A stretch of 64,000 nucleotides of DNA from Alphaproteobacteria bacterium (GTDB taxonomy: Bacteria; Pseudomonadota; Alphaproteobacteria; Micavibrionales; Micavibrionaceae). The stretch is taken from positions 1 through 64,000 of the forward strand of contig JAGRKA010000003.1 of the NCBI GenBank assembly GCA_020442475.1, in the 5' to 3' direction. A program made the translations under genes and the position numbers. Shown here in pieces: positions 5,892 through 31,442 of this stretch; the stretch's first letter is position 1, and every line of letters starts with the position of its first letter. The notes under the pieces are model-generated. The model was not told the origin of the DNA and searched no databases. It saw only the letters and a list, made by a program, of their open reading frames with translations.

Positions 5892-6707
5892 TTACGGCAT
5901 CGCGTACGGGGCGGCGGGCATGAGGAACTCGCCCTCATGTTTCTGGTATTGATCCAAAATCAGCTCCAGCTTCCCGGACAGGATCAAAGAGTCGATCCCG
6001 GCATTTAGGAACGCCACAAGCGGATATTCATCCTGTGGCAACAGAATAACGCTCGCCCCCATTGAAACGGGAGGGCCAAGCGGTTTCAGCTTGCCGGGAT
6101 TATTAGCCATGTAATCCAGCCCCAGCGCGCTTTCTGCGATTGTAAAATCAGCCTTCCCCGTAGCGATCAGCTCGAAACGCTCAGCGGCGGAGCTTAGGCC
6201 CATAAGTGAGACAGGCTGTGTCTTCGGGAAGCGCTGGTTCCTAAGGACGTCGGAATATTCGCCGTCCATGACGCCCATCTTCACGGCTTCCGCATTCAGG
6301 TCTTTAGCCCCCTGAAAACGGGTTTCATCGGCGCGAACATAGATATATGTCGGTGAATAAATCACATGCTTCGTGAAATCCGCCCCGTTCGCACGGGAGG
6401 GTGTCGTGAAATAGCCCGCGCACACAGCGTCATAGCGGCCTGTTTCAAGCCCCTGCAAAATCCCGTCCGAGCCGACTTCCTCCGTCCACTGCACGTCAAT
6501 AGAGAGCTCTTCGCCAACCGCCTCCACAGCATCATAAAAAATGCCGGAAAATTCGCCGGTATTCGGGTTCTTGGAAACAAAAGGCGGATAGATCGTGTAG
6601 GCGCACCGCAAAACCCGGTCCTTCATCACCCGGTCGAAAACTTCACCGGCCTGCGCAGGCGCGGCAAAAACAATCATAACACACAGGGAAAGAATAAGTT
6701 TTTTCAT
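5892..6707 (-). CDS. periplasmic amino acid-binding protein (SBP family 3), second of two
   Basis: An exported solute-binding protein. A signal peptide (residues 1-20, ending APAQA) precedes a family 3 fold: LRCAYTIYPPFV, NTGEFSGIFYDAVEAVGEEL, GLETGRYDAVCAGYFTTPSRA and IATGKADFTIAESALGLDYMA. The ligand is not predictable. The ATG overlaps the stop of the upstream paralogue in an ATGA junction. Its first 57 coding bases are almost identical to those of the paralogue, while the mature proteins are only distantly alike. This implies recent copying or gene conversion of the signal-peptide segment. Confidence 0.88.
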   Translation of the reverse strand: MKKLILSLCVMIVFAAPAQAGEVFDRVMKDRVLRCAYTIYPPFVSKNPNTGEFSGIFYDAVEAVGEELSIDVQWTEEVGSDGILQGLETGRYDAVCAGYFTTPSRANGADFTKHVIYSPTYIYVRADETRFQGAKDLNAEAVKMGVMDGEYSDVLRNQRFPKTQPVSLMGLSSAAERFELIATGKADFTIAESALGLDYMANNPGKLKPLGPPVSMGASVILLPQDEYPLVAFLNAGIDSLILSGKLELILDQYQKHEGEFLMPAAPYAMP

Positions 6708-7549
6708 TTTGATGCCTCATAGGGTTTGGAAACACGTCTGAAACTGCCGGGATAATCCTTTTCATACCGATCCAGAATACGATCAACAACGCCTGAGTTC
6801 AGCAATTCCGCTGTAGCGGCGTTCAGAACCTGCAAGAGCTCATATTCATGAATATCAACACCTATCGTGTTTTCAAAAACACGCACAGGGTGCGCGGGCA
6901 CGAAACGAACGATCTTGCCGGGATTGTTTTCACGAAAACCGATGGCAATGGCCTCACTGGTAAAAGTCACATCCGCCTTACCCGTGGCTACATCCATCAA
7001 AAGATGCGCATCCGTTACAAGCGTAGGCGCGGAGAGCTTTTGAGCCTTCGGAAAGTCAAAATCGGCAATCTCATCGGCGATATCGTTGTCAATCACCGCA
7101 ATTGTGATATTTTCATCGTTCAGATCGGCAAGACTTTTGCCGGCCAGCTTTTCATGACCTTCGCGGACATAAGCCTCGACGACGTTGTAATAAACCGGGT
7201 CGCTAAAAGCCATAACGCGGGCCTTTTTAGAGCTCGGCCACATGCTCGCGCACATAGCGTCAATCTTGCCGGTTTTAAGCGCTTCGGGAACCTGCCCCCA
7301 ATCCGTCTCCTGCGTCCATTCTATTTCCAGCCCTGTGGCCTTGCCCAGAGCATTCATAAATTCGACAAACGCGCCTGTCATCTCCCCGGTTTCCGGGTCC
7401 TTTATGAGCGCCGGATCCCAGAGCGCATAACCGCACCTGAGCTTAGCGGTTTGCTGCATCCGTTCGTACGCGCCGCCTTCCTCCGCACCCGCCTGCGCAG
7501 GCGCGGCAAAAACAATCATAACACACAGGGAGAGAATAAGTTTTTTCAT
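6704..7549 (-). CDS. periplasmic amino acid-binding protein (SBP family 3), first of two
   Basis: A secreted family 3 solute-binding protein of 281 residues. It has a 20-residue signal peptide identical to that of the next gene. Mature features include KLRCGYALWDPALI, ETGEMTGAFVEFMNALG, TGKIDAMCASMWPSSKKARV and VATGKADVTFTSEAIA. It lies between the single permease gene (12 bp upstream) and the second binding protein (4 bp overlap). Two receptors feeding one permease and one ATPase would broaden substrate range; that is inference. The substrate is unknown. Confidence 0.88.
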   Translation of the reverse strand: MKKLILSLCVMIVFAAPAQAGAEEGGAYERMQQTAKLRCGYALWDPALIKDPETGEMTGAFVEFMNALGKATGLEIEWTQETDWGQVPEALKTGKIDAMCASMWPSSKKARVMAFSDPVYYNVVEAYVREGHEKLAGKSLADLNDENITIAVIDNDIADEIADFDFPKAQKLSAPTLVTDAHLLMDVATGKADVTFTSEAIAIGFRENNPGKIVRFVPAHPVRVFENTIGVDIHEYELLQVLNAATAELLNSGVVDRILDRYEKDYPGSFRRVSKPYEASK

Positions 7550-22373: not shown

Positions 22374-22568
22374 TATAGCCTATCCCATATAAAATGATTC
22401 AGCTTTCGTCATCCCGGAGGCGATGCGCAGCATCGCTTAAACATCCGGGATCCACAAAGAGAGCCGCTAAAAGCGGCTCACATATAGATCCCCGCCGTTA
22501 ATGTCTTGCTCCGCAAGAATGCGGGGATGACATTTGCTTTGCAATCATTTTATAGCGGATTGGCTATA
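22374..22568. repeat. structured TIR element, copy A (MITE/palindromic element)
   Basis: A 195 bp element with 26-base terminal inverted repeats at 22374-22399 and 22543-22568 that match at 23 of 26 positions. They begin TATAGCC and end ATAAAATGATT. The core has three hairpins in order: CATCCCGG...CCGGGATC with an inner GCGATGC/GCATCGC stem, then GAGCCGC...GCGGCTC, then GATCCCCGC...GCGGGGAT with an inner TCTTGC/GCAAGA stem. The right end lies inside the 3' end of the adjacent hypothetical gene and supplies its last codons and stop. Confidence 0.88.
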
Positions 22569-23932
22569 GTGTGCTGCAGGGTAGACTCAAAAATACCGCC
22601 TATTTTTGAGAGTTTTTCATTATTCAAAAGCATTCTGGTCGCTTTGTTCATATCCGGTTTAAAGCCCTGTCGGCGCCGGCCCATAAAAAAGCGGTTGGCA
22701 AGGCAAATTTTCTCCCATGAAACACAGGCTTCTGCGGCATAAAAGGCATCTTCCGTTTTCTGAGCGATCCGGCGTTCGTCGGCGTTCTCCTCGGCCATAG
22801 CGCTTTGAAATGCTTCGGCAGCCTCAAGAAGAGGGCCTGCGCACCAGCCGATCGGCTTGTTGCCGAGTAAATCCTCATTGCATTGGCGCGCCCTGTCATA
22901 AAAATGGACTGTGGATTGTTCTGAAAGCGCCTTGGACAGGGTTGTCCGTAATATTCTACCGCATGTTTTACGGTGCAGCCGTTCATTCGCTTCCTGATCT
23001 GCAAAGGGATTGTAGATATCCCCGCGAGCAGGAGGGGCCGGCTCCAGATGCAAAGACTCGGCAACGATATAGGCGATCGGGCGGATGTAGGACTCTTCGC
23101 TGGTATAAGTTGCCGCGCTCAGGATCGTATTTTTACAGGATTCGCCCCATGCCATCTCCTGCGCCGCTGATGCAAAGGCCGCCCACTGGCGTAAGGAAAG
23201 ATCGTCAAAAGTATCCCCGATTTCGCGGGTCATCTGTACTGCGCGTGCTACAGGGCACAGTTTCGGTTTGAGTACATCTTCGAGGTCCCTGTAGATGAGC
23301 TTGGCGGCATCCGTCACAATCGGAAAGGGGTAAAGCTCGGCCTTGTAAGCCGGTACAGGCGAAACACTCATCAGACTGCGTTGTCCGGCCAGGCCGGTGA
23401 TCGCGTTCTTATGGCCTTCAATGCGCCTCATCAGGGCGCAGAACGTATCGGCCAGCATGTTTGTACGGGCCTGATAAAGAGGCGGAAAGTCAGGGATAAT
23501 GAACGAACCTTTAACCTTGAAAAGCTTCTCCTGTCCGGATTGGCGCAGTTCAAGAAGTGCGATAGCGTCCCAACTGAGCGTATAGATACCCTGTTCCGCA
23601 TCGTCCCGGGTTTCAAAAATGCCTGCCGGAATAAGCAGCAAGGCATAGTTCTGTCCTTTTTTCCATAGGCCTGAAAAAGTTTTGGACGGACTTTCAAGCA
23701 GGCAGGCCATAGCCGGTTTTCCAGCTTTTACGGATTTTAGAGCTGCTATACGCAAGGGCTCCATATCTAGTACAGGCGGCTCATTTTCTTTTGCGCAGGC
23801 ATCCTCCAGCGCTTGCTCCCATTCCTTATCCTTGTAGATTGCGAGCACAAGGGTGAGATCCGGAAAAGCCTCCGCAACCTTGCGTTTAATCGTGTTGCCT
23901 ATATGTTGCAGAATGGGCGTTTCAAGACTCAT
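22550..23932 (-). CDS. hypothetical protein, 460 aa
   Basis: A long frame with a good ATG (23932) that I cannot assign to a family. It has no signal peptide or membrane segment and appears to be a soluble, mixed alpha/beta protein. Notable blocks are LLIPAGIFETRDDAEQGIYT, SFIIPDFPPLYQAR and a Cys-containing C-terminal half (KTCGRILR, GWCAGPLLEAAEAF, EACVSWEKICLANRFFMG). The last residues (IANPL) and the stop come from the terminal inverted repeat of element A, so the original C terminus may have been replaced. It diverges from fabI with about 115 bp between them. Confidence 0.75.
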   Translation of the reverse strand: MSLETPILQHIGNTIKRKVAEAFPDLTLVLAIYKDKEWEQALEDACAKENEPPVLDMEPLRIAALKSVKAGKPAMACLLESPSKTFSGLWKKGQNYALLLIPAGIFETRDDAEQGIYTLSWDAIALLELRQSGQEKLFKVKGSFIIPDFPPLYQARTNMLADTFCALMRRIEGHKNAITGLAGQRSLMSVSPVPAYKAELYPFPIVTDAAKLIYRDLEDVLKPKLCPVARAVQMTREIGDTFDDLSLRQWAAFASAAQEMAWGESCKNTILSAATYTSEESYIRPIAYIVAESLHLEPAPPARGDIYNPFADQEANERLHRKTCGRILRTTLSKALSEQSTVHFYDRARQCNEDLLGNKPIGWCAGPLLEAAEAFQSAMAEENADERRIAQKTEDAFYAAEACVSWEKICLANRFFMGRRRQGFKPDMNKATRMLLNNEKLSKIGGIFESTLQHTIANPL

Positions 23933-29925: not shown

Positions 29926-30065
29926 TATAGCCTGCCCAAAATAAATTGATTCAAAATTTAAAACTTTTTGCTTTCCCCGCGAAAGCGGGGATCTTTTCAC
30001 GTCATATACTTAAGGCCCCCGCTTTCGCGGGGGAGGCACAATCATTTTAAAATGGTTAGGCTATA
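29926..30065. repeat. structured TIR element, copy B (short form)
   Basis: A 140 bp element with 26-base inverted ends (29926-29951 and 30040-30065) matching at about 20 positions. The ends start TATAGCC and finish TTGATT/TGATT like copy A. The core holds two GC hairpins, CCCCGCGAAAGCGGGG and CCCCCGCTTTCGCGGGGG, instead of the three-hairpin core of copies A and C. It is intergenic. Confidence 0.8.
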
Positions 30066-30084: not shown

Positions 30085-30295
30085 TATAGCCATCCCAGTT
30101 AAAAATTGGGTATATCTCCCAAACGTCATCCCGTTGGCGCTTTCGCGAAGGCGAAAGCTTGCACGAACGGGATCCAGAGAGGTCAGCCGCGAAATGCGGC
30201 TGGCATTAAACAGATCCCCGCCGTTTCAGCACGCCACAGGCGTGCCGCGGGGATGACAGTATAAGGATGTCCAATTTTTAACCGGGATGGCTATA
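30085..30295. repeat. structured TIR element, copy C
   Basis: A 211 bp element. Its ends (TATAGCCATCCC, then GTTAAAAATTGG after one variable base) are inverted repeats differing at one position over about 25 bases. The core follows copy A: a CATCCCGTT/AACGGGATC hairpin with inner GCTTTCGC/GCGAAAGC, a CAGCCGC/GCGGCTG hairpin, and a GATCCCCGC/GCGGGGAT hairpin with inner GCACGCC/GGCGTGC. Its right end overlaps the last codons and stop of the glycosyltransferase gene at 30291. Confidence 0.88.
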
Positions 30296-31442
30296 CAAGG
30301 TGCGGTAAAATCTTACGCTCTTGCTCGAAGCACAGTTCGCGAGCGGCGATGTCGGCAGCATTTTTGGCGCCATCGATCTGTGATTGTGTCAGGCTTTGGA
30401 GCAAGGTCATCAGGTCTGCGGTCTGAAAACCCTCACTGACAAACCCACAACCATAATGTTGGATGAGGGTCGCCATATCCGGGGAGGGGCCGCTTAGAAC
30501 GGCAAGGCGGGCTTGTATGCATTCGAAGAACTTATTCGGCAGGCAATAGCGCAGATTGACGTTAGACGGCTCCAGCAGGCACAGGCCAAGATCATAGCCT
30601 GTCAGCATCGTGTGAATTTCATCGAGCGGCACGGGGGGCGGGAAGCCTATATGCGGGAAGGGCGCGGCCAGCTTTTTGAGCGTTTCGATATAATCCTGCG
30701 GCCCGGTCAGATAGAAATCAAGGCTGTAGCGTGGGCCAAGCGTTCCGGCGGCTTCAATCATGGTTTCAAGCTGTCTGTCGGGCACGGCGCGGCCATGATG
30801 AACCATGCGGATATGTTTGGCAGGAGTCGGGGTGGGGGTGGCTTCCCTATACAAAGGTGCGCTGCGCATCAGGGTACATTCGATACCAAAATGCTCCCGG
30901 TAGAGATTTTGCAGCCCTTCGGAAACGGTTAGAACGCTATCGCAGGCGGCCATATAGCGTGCGCATAGGTGGTTTCGGTAGGGTTTTTCGAACAGGTTCC
31001 ATTTCCAGTCATTCCCCGTTTCCTCCGGGTAATATTCCCGCGCATCGCAGATAATTTTACCCCTCTTTCTGATCTGGAAAGCGAGCGGCAGCAGGTACAG
31101 ATTTTCAACAAAAATCAGGTCAAAATCTTCATCGGCTGTTTCGTATTCGACACGGCTTGTCCGCCACCTGTTGTCATGGAGGAGGGTGATCAGCTTTTCA
31201 TGTTTGAGGAGTGCTATACCGAGTTTAAGCACGATACGGCGGAGCTTGTTGAGGCGGCCCGGCGCAGGCTGCGGCTCCAGCGTGTAAAAGCGCTTATGAT
31301 CCAGAGGCGTTTTCATCGGAAATCCGGCAATCGAGACTCTATGGCCCAGTTCTGTGCAGTAATCCGCAAGCCGTCTGGGGCGGGGGTTCGTGCTGACATC
31401 GGCCAGCGCCATGATCAGGATGTTTAAAGGGGCTTTGCTCAT
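30291..31442 (-). CDS. glycosyltransferase family 4-like
   Basis: A 383-residue GT-B type glycosyltransferase, the last gene of the glycan operon. The N terminus has NILIMALADVSTNPRPRRL and the C-terminal donor domain has LTGPQDYIETLKKLA, GYDLGLCLLEPS and LPNKFFECIQARLAVL, with the acidic pattern of GT4-like enzymes. Donor and acceptor are unknown. Its stop codon is part of the right end of repeat element C, so the C terminus may be slightly altered. It lies 6 bp after the AsnB-like gene. Confidence 0.82.
   Translation of the reverse strand: MSKAPLNILIMALADVSTNPRPRRLADYCTELGHRVSIAGFPMKTPLDHKRFYTLEPQPAPGRLNKLRRIVLKLGIALLKHEKLITLLHDNRWRTSRVEYETADEDFDLIFVENLYLLPLAFQIRKRGKIICDAREYYPEETGNDWKWNLFEKPYRNHLCARYMAACDSVLTVSEGLQNLYREHFGIECTLMRSAPLYREATPTPTPAKHIRMVHHGRAVPDRQLETMIEAAGTLGPRYSLDFYLTGPQDYIETLKKLAAPFPHIGFPPPVPLDEIHTMLTGYDLGLCLLEPSNVNLRYCLPNKFFECIQARLAVLSGPSPDMATLIQHYGCGFVSEGFQTADLMTLLQSLTQSQIDGAKNAADIAARELCFEQERKILPHLV

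Follow-up and report, generated by a model that had tools for sequence, protein, structure and literature searches.

The closest described systems are the CGTC-REPs, palindromes that occur mostly in Alphaproteobacteria and include a CGTC-1 family in Micavibrio aeruginosavorus (Di Nocera et al. 2013, PMC3733652). They are defined by a CGTC tag, a stem and a tail, and they form head-to-head dimers, among them heterodimers, with structured spacers and intragenic copies and without a transposase. Their loop is given as 4-5 nt in Table 1 of that paper, with exceptions noted. The same study describes, from a cyanobacterium, TATAG palindromes that contain REP dimers, and it identifies RPE-4 and RPE-6 of R. 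conorii as CGTC repeats (PMC3733652).

The present locus belongs to a Micavibrionaceae relative with a genome of 2.12 Mb in 131 contigs. The window, that is, the whole analysed stretch of 64,000 nucleotides, is contig C65. A first-pass annotation had reported two copies, A and C, of one structured inverted-repeat element. Their coordinates, their ends and every stem string quoted for them are present in the sequence, and both copies have exactly TATAGCC...GGCTATA at their ends. Two nested layers, a REP dimer core and an outer MITE shell, had however been read as one. The parts are as follows.

22374..22568, no strand: copy A, a composite with a TATAGCC...GGCTATA shell around a CGTC-REP head-to-head dimer
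22374..22401, plus strand: left terminal inverted repeat of A, TATAGCCTATCCCATATAAAATGATTCA
22408..22453, plus strand: arm 1 of A, type GGA, outer stem ATCCCGGA/TCCGGGAT, inner stem GGCGATGC/GCATCGCT, 3' bulge (64.5 bits with the arm model)
22461..22479, no strand: central hairpin of A, GAGCCGCT/AGCGGCTC
22486..22531, minus strand: arm 2 of A, type Q, outer stem ATCCCCGC/GCGGGGAT, inner stem TCTTGC/GCAAGA
22543..22568, minus strand: right terminal inverted repeat of A, with the last codons and stop codon of ORF 22550-23932(-)
29926..30065, no strand: B-type 140-bp TATAGCC element with two CCCCGCGAAAGCGGGG-type hairpins and no arm-model match
30085..30295, no strand: copy C, a composite of the subfamily with the most near-identical copies
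30085..30113, plus strand: left terminal inverted repeat of C, TATAGCCATCCCAGTTAAAAATTGGGTAT
30125..30175, plus strand: arm 1 of C, type P, outer stem ATCCCGTT/AACGGGAT, inner stem GCTTTCGC/GCGAAAGC
30182..30203, no strand: central hairpin of C, GTCAGCCGC/GCGGCTGGC
30212..30257, minus strand: arm 2 of C, type Q, outer stem ATCCCCGC/GCGGGGAT, inner stem GCACGCC/GGCGTGC
30267..30295, minus strand: right terminal inverted repeat of C, in which the glycosyltransferase-like ORF 30291-31442(-) has its stop codon (30291-30293)

Adjoining minus-strand ORFs thus take their stop codons from the right terminal repeats of both copies, at 22550-22568 in A and at 30290-30295 in C. The B-type element lies 19 bp to the left of copy C and has related copies at loci L028 and L064. 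Of two further window positions listed as similar, 14667 has at most a degenerate half end and 8199 no more than a chance match. The window also holds two 64-base stretches, 97% identical and 842 bp apart (6644-6707 and 7486-7549), perhaps a duplicated gene start with a signal peptide.

Taken together, the elements are probably a non-autonomous, two-layer mobile repeat, with an extended CGTC-REP dimer as core and a TA-target MITE as shell. A search of the whole genome, as proposed in the first-pass annotation, gives far more than two copies. With BLASTN, copy A has 28 matches and copy C has 40, and a covariance model built from 22 arms finds 75 arms, mostly as facing pairs, in roughly 40 elements. 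In the family the arms are patchy, occurring in 18 of 37 genomes. Among the core-pattern matches listed are at least Hyphomicrobiales, Sphingomonadales, unassigned alphaproteobacterial bins and a few others; some, for example those to Streptomyces and Chloroflexi, look like chance matches, and the viral contigs searched with the pattern gave no match. Rfam at the gathering score returned only tRNAs in the window and no family that matches the elements. The Hyphomicrobiales matches in Labrys, Alsobacter, Chelatococcus and Microvirga (L225-L304) have facing GTCATCCCCGG...GGGGATCC arms with variable inner hairpins and constitute a parallel large family. As these arms also have a variable inner stem and an additional 3' stretch, the extended loop is not confined to Micavibrio relatives.

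The inner layer, about 125 bp long, consists of two CGTC-type REP palindromes head to head with a central hairpin between them. Folded as single-stranded DNA, the cores of A and C give three hairpins in order (z = -7.6 and -7.0), and 0 of 200 dinucleotide shuffles fold as well. An arm reads GTC, outer stem of 8 bp, inner stem, loop of 3-4 nt, inner stem, bulge, outer stem and CC(A). The 3' bulge of 6-7 nt is conserved, its commonest forms being TTAAACG, TTAAACA and TTGCACG. Facing arms point their GTC ends outward and stand about 30-37 bases apart, with two longer exceptions; the spacer contains the third hairpin (CAGCAGC/GCTGCTG, for example), which varies in pairs. The usual dimer joins a type Q arm (ATCCCCGC or a variant of it) to an arm of type P (ATCCCGTT) or GGA, the combinations in the window being GGA with Q in A and P with Q in C. 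Flips of the central-hairpin loop were considered as a signal and rejected, since they depended on orientation.

Much of this anatomy is that of the CGTC-REPs: an unpaired tag, CGTC or TGTC, with a CC(A) tail at the opposite end, head-to-head dimers and heterodimers, structured spacers and no dedicated transposase. The stem also agrees, with 8 bp starting from A-T pairs where the definition has 8-9 bp with A-T pairs first, and helix 1 is paired in 98.3% of cells. Unlike in the published family, the place of the 4-5 nt loop is taken by an inner segment of about 22-45 nt, a variable second stem-loop followed by the conserved bulge; paired changes are also seen in the spacer hairpin, and some copies are enclosed in a TA-target MITE shell. 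Since the loop departs from the published length, we call the elements an extended form of the alphaproteobacterial CGTC-REPs and not plain members. The usual REP loop would here have been replaced by a second, freely varying stem-loop and the 3' bulge.

All 47 distinct dimers are head-to-head, and no other arrangement exists among the aligned arms. The two arms of a pair are almost always different. In 46 of the 47 dimers they share a prefix of at most 9 bases, which in 27 of these 46 is exactly the 8 bases GTCATCCC; a shared prefix of 11 or more bases is seen in 2% of dimers as against 21% on random re-pairing of arms. Di Nocera et al. proposed that heterodimers escape SbcCD, which needs stems of 8-16 bp (PMC3733652), and the present counts fit this idea. 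Unlike arms would each fold on themselves, and the formation of one long hairpin open to repair nucleases would be avoided.

The core also occurs alone. Dimers without inverted repeats are present in the same genome (L015, L016, L041, L127 and L373) and in the other genera sampled, and the three-hairpin core is a unit separate from the shell, namely a CGTC-REP head-to-head dimer. Whole dimers of about 42-44 codons each are also found in frame within genes: alaS, aroC and leuS in this genome, assigned by their domains, and uvrA in genome G026, named from the sequence of UvrA. Their positions are as follows.

L016, 1505-1629: in-gene dimer, this genome
L041, 1501-1625: in-gene dimer, this genome
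L127, 520-650: in-gene dimer, this genome
L360, 838-962: in-gene dimer, G026

All four are read in the same frame, and three of them encode a peptide H-P-V-G...L-H-E-R-D-P-E...R-G-D-D. Compared with relatives, the aroC insert measures exactly 42 codons (126 bases), near the size of the core, while the alaS site is in a length-variable stretch without an exact boundary. These copies are reminiscent of the Rickettsia palindromic elements in being in-frame palindromic repeats in housekeeping genes, which holds for some of the copies only; unlike in Rickettsia, the coding insert is a whole two-arm dimer.

The inner stems change their letters and remain paired. The 150 arms have 137 different inner segments, which pair in nearly every case (mean z -3.3), and 939 of about 1010 inner pairs are Watson-Crick. 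At unpaired inner positions, A/G or G/A oppositions account for 40 of the 52 non-wobble cases; A/G oppositions in tandem can still stack as a helix. Among 141 distinct arms taken from many genera, pairing extends to 92.9% of cells, with a covariation score of 0.537; shuffled alignments score 0.157, and sliding the partner by 1-3 columns gives 0.045-0.102. An earlier alignment that was not model-fitted gave 0.458 versus 0.166. Mutual information with average-product correction, calculated on ungapped 46-mers, served as an independent test, in which the 10 highest-scoring of 903 column pairs all belong to the structure. When the set is reduced to 17 representatives that share at most 80% identity, 8 pairs exceed the family-wise threshold, every one of them structural. 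The latter set is the fairer test because the method is not phylogeny-aware.

Selection for a folded nucleic acid, as proposed in the first-pass annotation from copies A and C, is therefore strongly borne out by the 141-arm score and the mutual-information test, and covariation over the large arm alignment is significant. Given covariation this decisive, the conclusion that the fold is under selection is supported. As to the compensatory change seen between A and C, the covariation itself is proven by the large alignment; compensation purely at matching positions is not upheld, since A has a first arm with outer stem ATCCCGGA and C one with ATCCCGTT, which are different arm types, so that a two-copy comparison overstates direct compensation. 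What is conserved is the shape together with the ends GTCATCCC and GGGATCC, and the stem letters can drift in pairs while the fold survives. The element is therefore probably moved by a trans-acting enzyme that recognises it as folded single-stranded DNA.

The hairpins could instead be kept for a function in host RNA, stabilising or ending transcripts from within 3' untranslated regions, their stems being compensated for that reason. Genomic context gives this idea some ground. With a simple codon-score gene finder, the 74 scored copies were divided into 32 at convergent, 34 at tandem and 8 at divergent gene pairs, as against 7, 27 and 8 for the gaps in the window, and the median distance of copies is 46 bp to the flanking 3' end and 113 bp to the 5' end. 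Published REPs have the same convergent and 3' preference (PMC3733652). The enrichment between convergent genes fits a 3'-end function as well as survival where insertion harms least, and a 3' bias is equally expected from the latter. Against the idea, no T-run follows the arms, which therefore are not intrinsic terminators, presence is patchy among the genera of one family, and copies lie in frame in alaS, aroC, leuS and uvrA. Counts of G-U versus A-C mismatches do not follow the transcript strand, in a small sample (30 versus 21; only 13 informative cells in the tandem-gene subset), and mismatch types do not distinguish selection on RNA from selection on DNA. A role in host RNA is thus possible but doubtful.

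A second alternative concerns the way in which the inner stems came to differ. They may have been rewritten by templated replacement, through strand switching at the hairpin during replication, and not by separate compensatory mutations. Inner stems differ wholesale and yet are perfectly Watson-Crick in 96 of 141 arms, with few intermediates, and some near-identical arms differ by a block of adjacent bases on one side only (GTTGGC versus GCCCGC). Single-pair changes occur too, however (GGGC/GCCT versus GGGT/ACCT, for example), and outer stems also covary, though among few types, which makes this explanation rather unlikely. It could also be imagined that CGTC-REP dimers are moved by a non-RAYT, shape-reading enzyme acting on folded single-stranded DNA and that their inner stems are rewritten block-wise by strand switching. 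This combination is unlikely as a whole; if true, the new stem of each copy would be paired from the outset.

In the preferred two-layer reading, the REP dimer is the cargo of a second unit. The outer TATAGCC/GGCTATA layer is a TA-target MITE confined to this genome. Flanking inverted repeats exceed the 97.5% control in 12 of the 27 dimers analysed here and in 0 of 21 in other genera, and the C-type shell has only weak, short matches outside this genome. Shell ends are of several sequences (types A and C, others in L007, L013 and L040), most of them starting with TATAG; single-arm loci in G021 have TATAG-type ends of different sequence. As TATAGCCNNNCC is no commoner genome-wide than its reversed control, ends alone are no evidence, and paired ends together with the core were used.

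The first-pass annotation had compared the TATA ends to the TA target sites of IS630/mariner-type MITEs, and insertion at TA holds for one B-type shell. In L028, a 140-bp B-type element like that at 29926-30065 is nested in a C copy. The filled site reads AACA-TATAGCCTAACC...GGGCAGGCTATA-TCTCCC, where sister copies have AACATATCTCTC or GACATATCTCCC; with longer flanks, TTGAACA-TATAGCC...GGCTATA-TCTCCC stands against TTGAACATATCTCTC (L031) and TTGGACATATCTCCC (L027). The B-type element was therefore inserted at TA with duplication of TA. For the A- and C-type composites themselves, no empty site turned up. At unrelated places, composite C copies share 80-95% identity over their whole length of about 209 bp, which indicates that shell and cargo multiplied together. 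REP dimers may have been captured by, or transferred into, the genome-specific shell and then amplified as its passengers.

Similar arrangements are known. The GTAG-15 dimers of Anabaena variabilis, within TATAGGA...TCCTATA, are likewise REP dimers in a TATAG...CTATA inverted repeat, but they are GTAG REPs in a cyanobacterium for which no REP-free palindromes were found (PMC3733652), whereas B-type shells without a CGTC-REP core exist here. As in the Correia/NEMIS, RUP and ERIC MITEs, also named in that paper, the shells are short, gene-free inverted repeats with strong folds. They differ in their ends and their REP-dimer cargo, and no partner transposase was found here. ERIC, RUP and Correia/NEMIS elements also use TA targets. 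A simple MITE derived from IS630/mariner, in which an IS630-type transposase cuts and pastes shell and hairpins together as a unit, would account for the TATAGCC inverted ends and for the TA duplication of the B-type shell. The IS630-like partner with the same ends that the first-pass annotation had looked to did not turn up: this draft genome has no DDE_3 (IS630) and no DDE_Tnp_1 (IS4/IS5) transposase and no TATAGCC end pairs at IS-length spacing, although the assembly of 131 contigs breaks at repeats, so that a transposase could be missing and its absence is unproven. IS630 copies in relatives were rejected as shell partner because their ends are different, and IS4/IS5 was rejected as resident mover since DDE_Tnp_1 is not in the genome. 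As the core moreover exists without the shell, this simpler origin is improbable.

Mobilisation by a RAYT as REPINs in the strict sense is very improbable: the REP-like, bulged arms do occur in inverted pairs that multiply within genomes, as in REPINs, but the tag is CGTC instead of GTAG, there is no RAYT here, and Y1_Tnp is absent from four arm-rich genomes (G010, G016, G028 and G029) and present in arm-free ones (G023, G033 and G035), so that a resident RAYT is not needed. A RAYT was also rejected as resident mover in this genome, where no intact Y1 transposase was found and the sole Y1 belongs to an IS200-like remnant and is split. That element, which has a CCCCGGGTTTACCCGGGG hairpin at its end, and a shortened derivative lie directly after the GGGATCCA tail of two different arms, at the following positions.

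L085, about 1270-1310 (G000, contig C67): IS200-like element or derivative behind an arm tail
L125, 430-510 (G000, contig C37): IS200-like element or derivative behind an arm tail

Since both insertions are behind this tail, the REP tail looks like a target of the IS200-like element.

Within the literature searched, several features are new: the variable inner stem and conserved bulge with their covariation, the constant plan of three hairpins, the shell that inserts at TA and carries REPs, the whole-dimer in-frame inserts and the tally of Y1 genes against arms. Sequence-based repeat finders list such a family, single by its structure, as many separate repeats. The paper that named the CGTC-REPs states as an open question how they multiply with no transposase of their own (PMC3733652). 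The elements described here offer a test bed for the spread of CGTC-REPs, with hundreds of copies, a conserved fold and free stem sequences, together with arm-rich relatives without Y1 transposases, copies in a TA shell and copies in essential genes.
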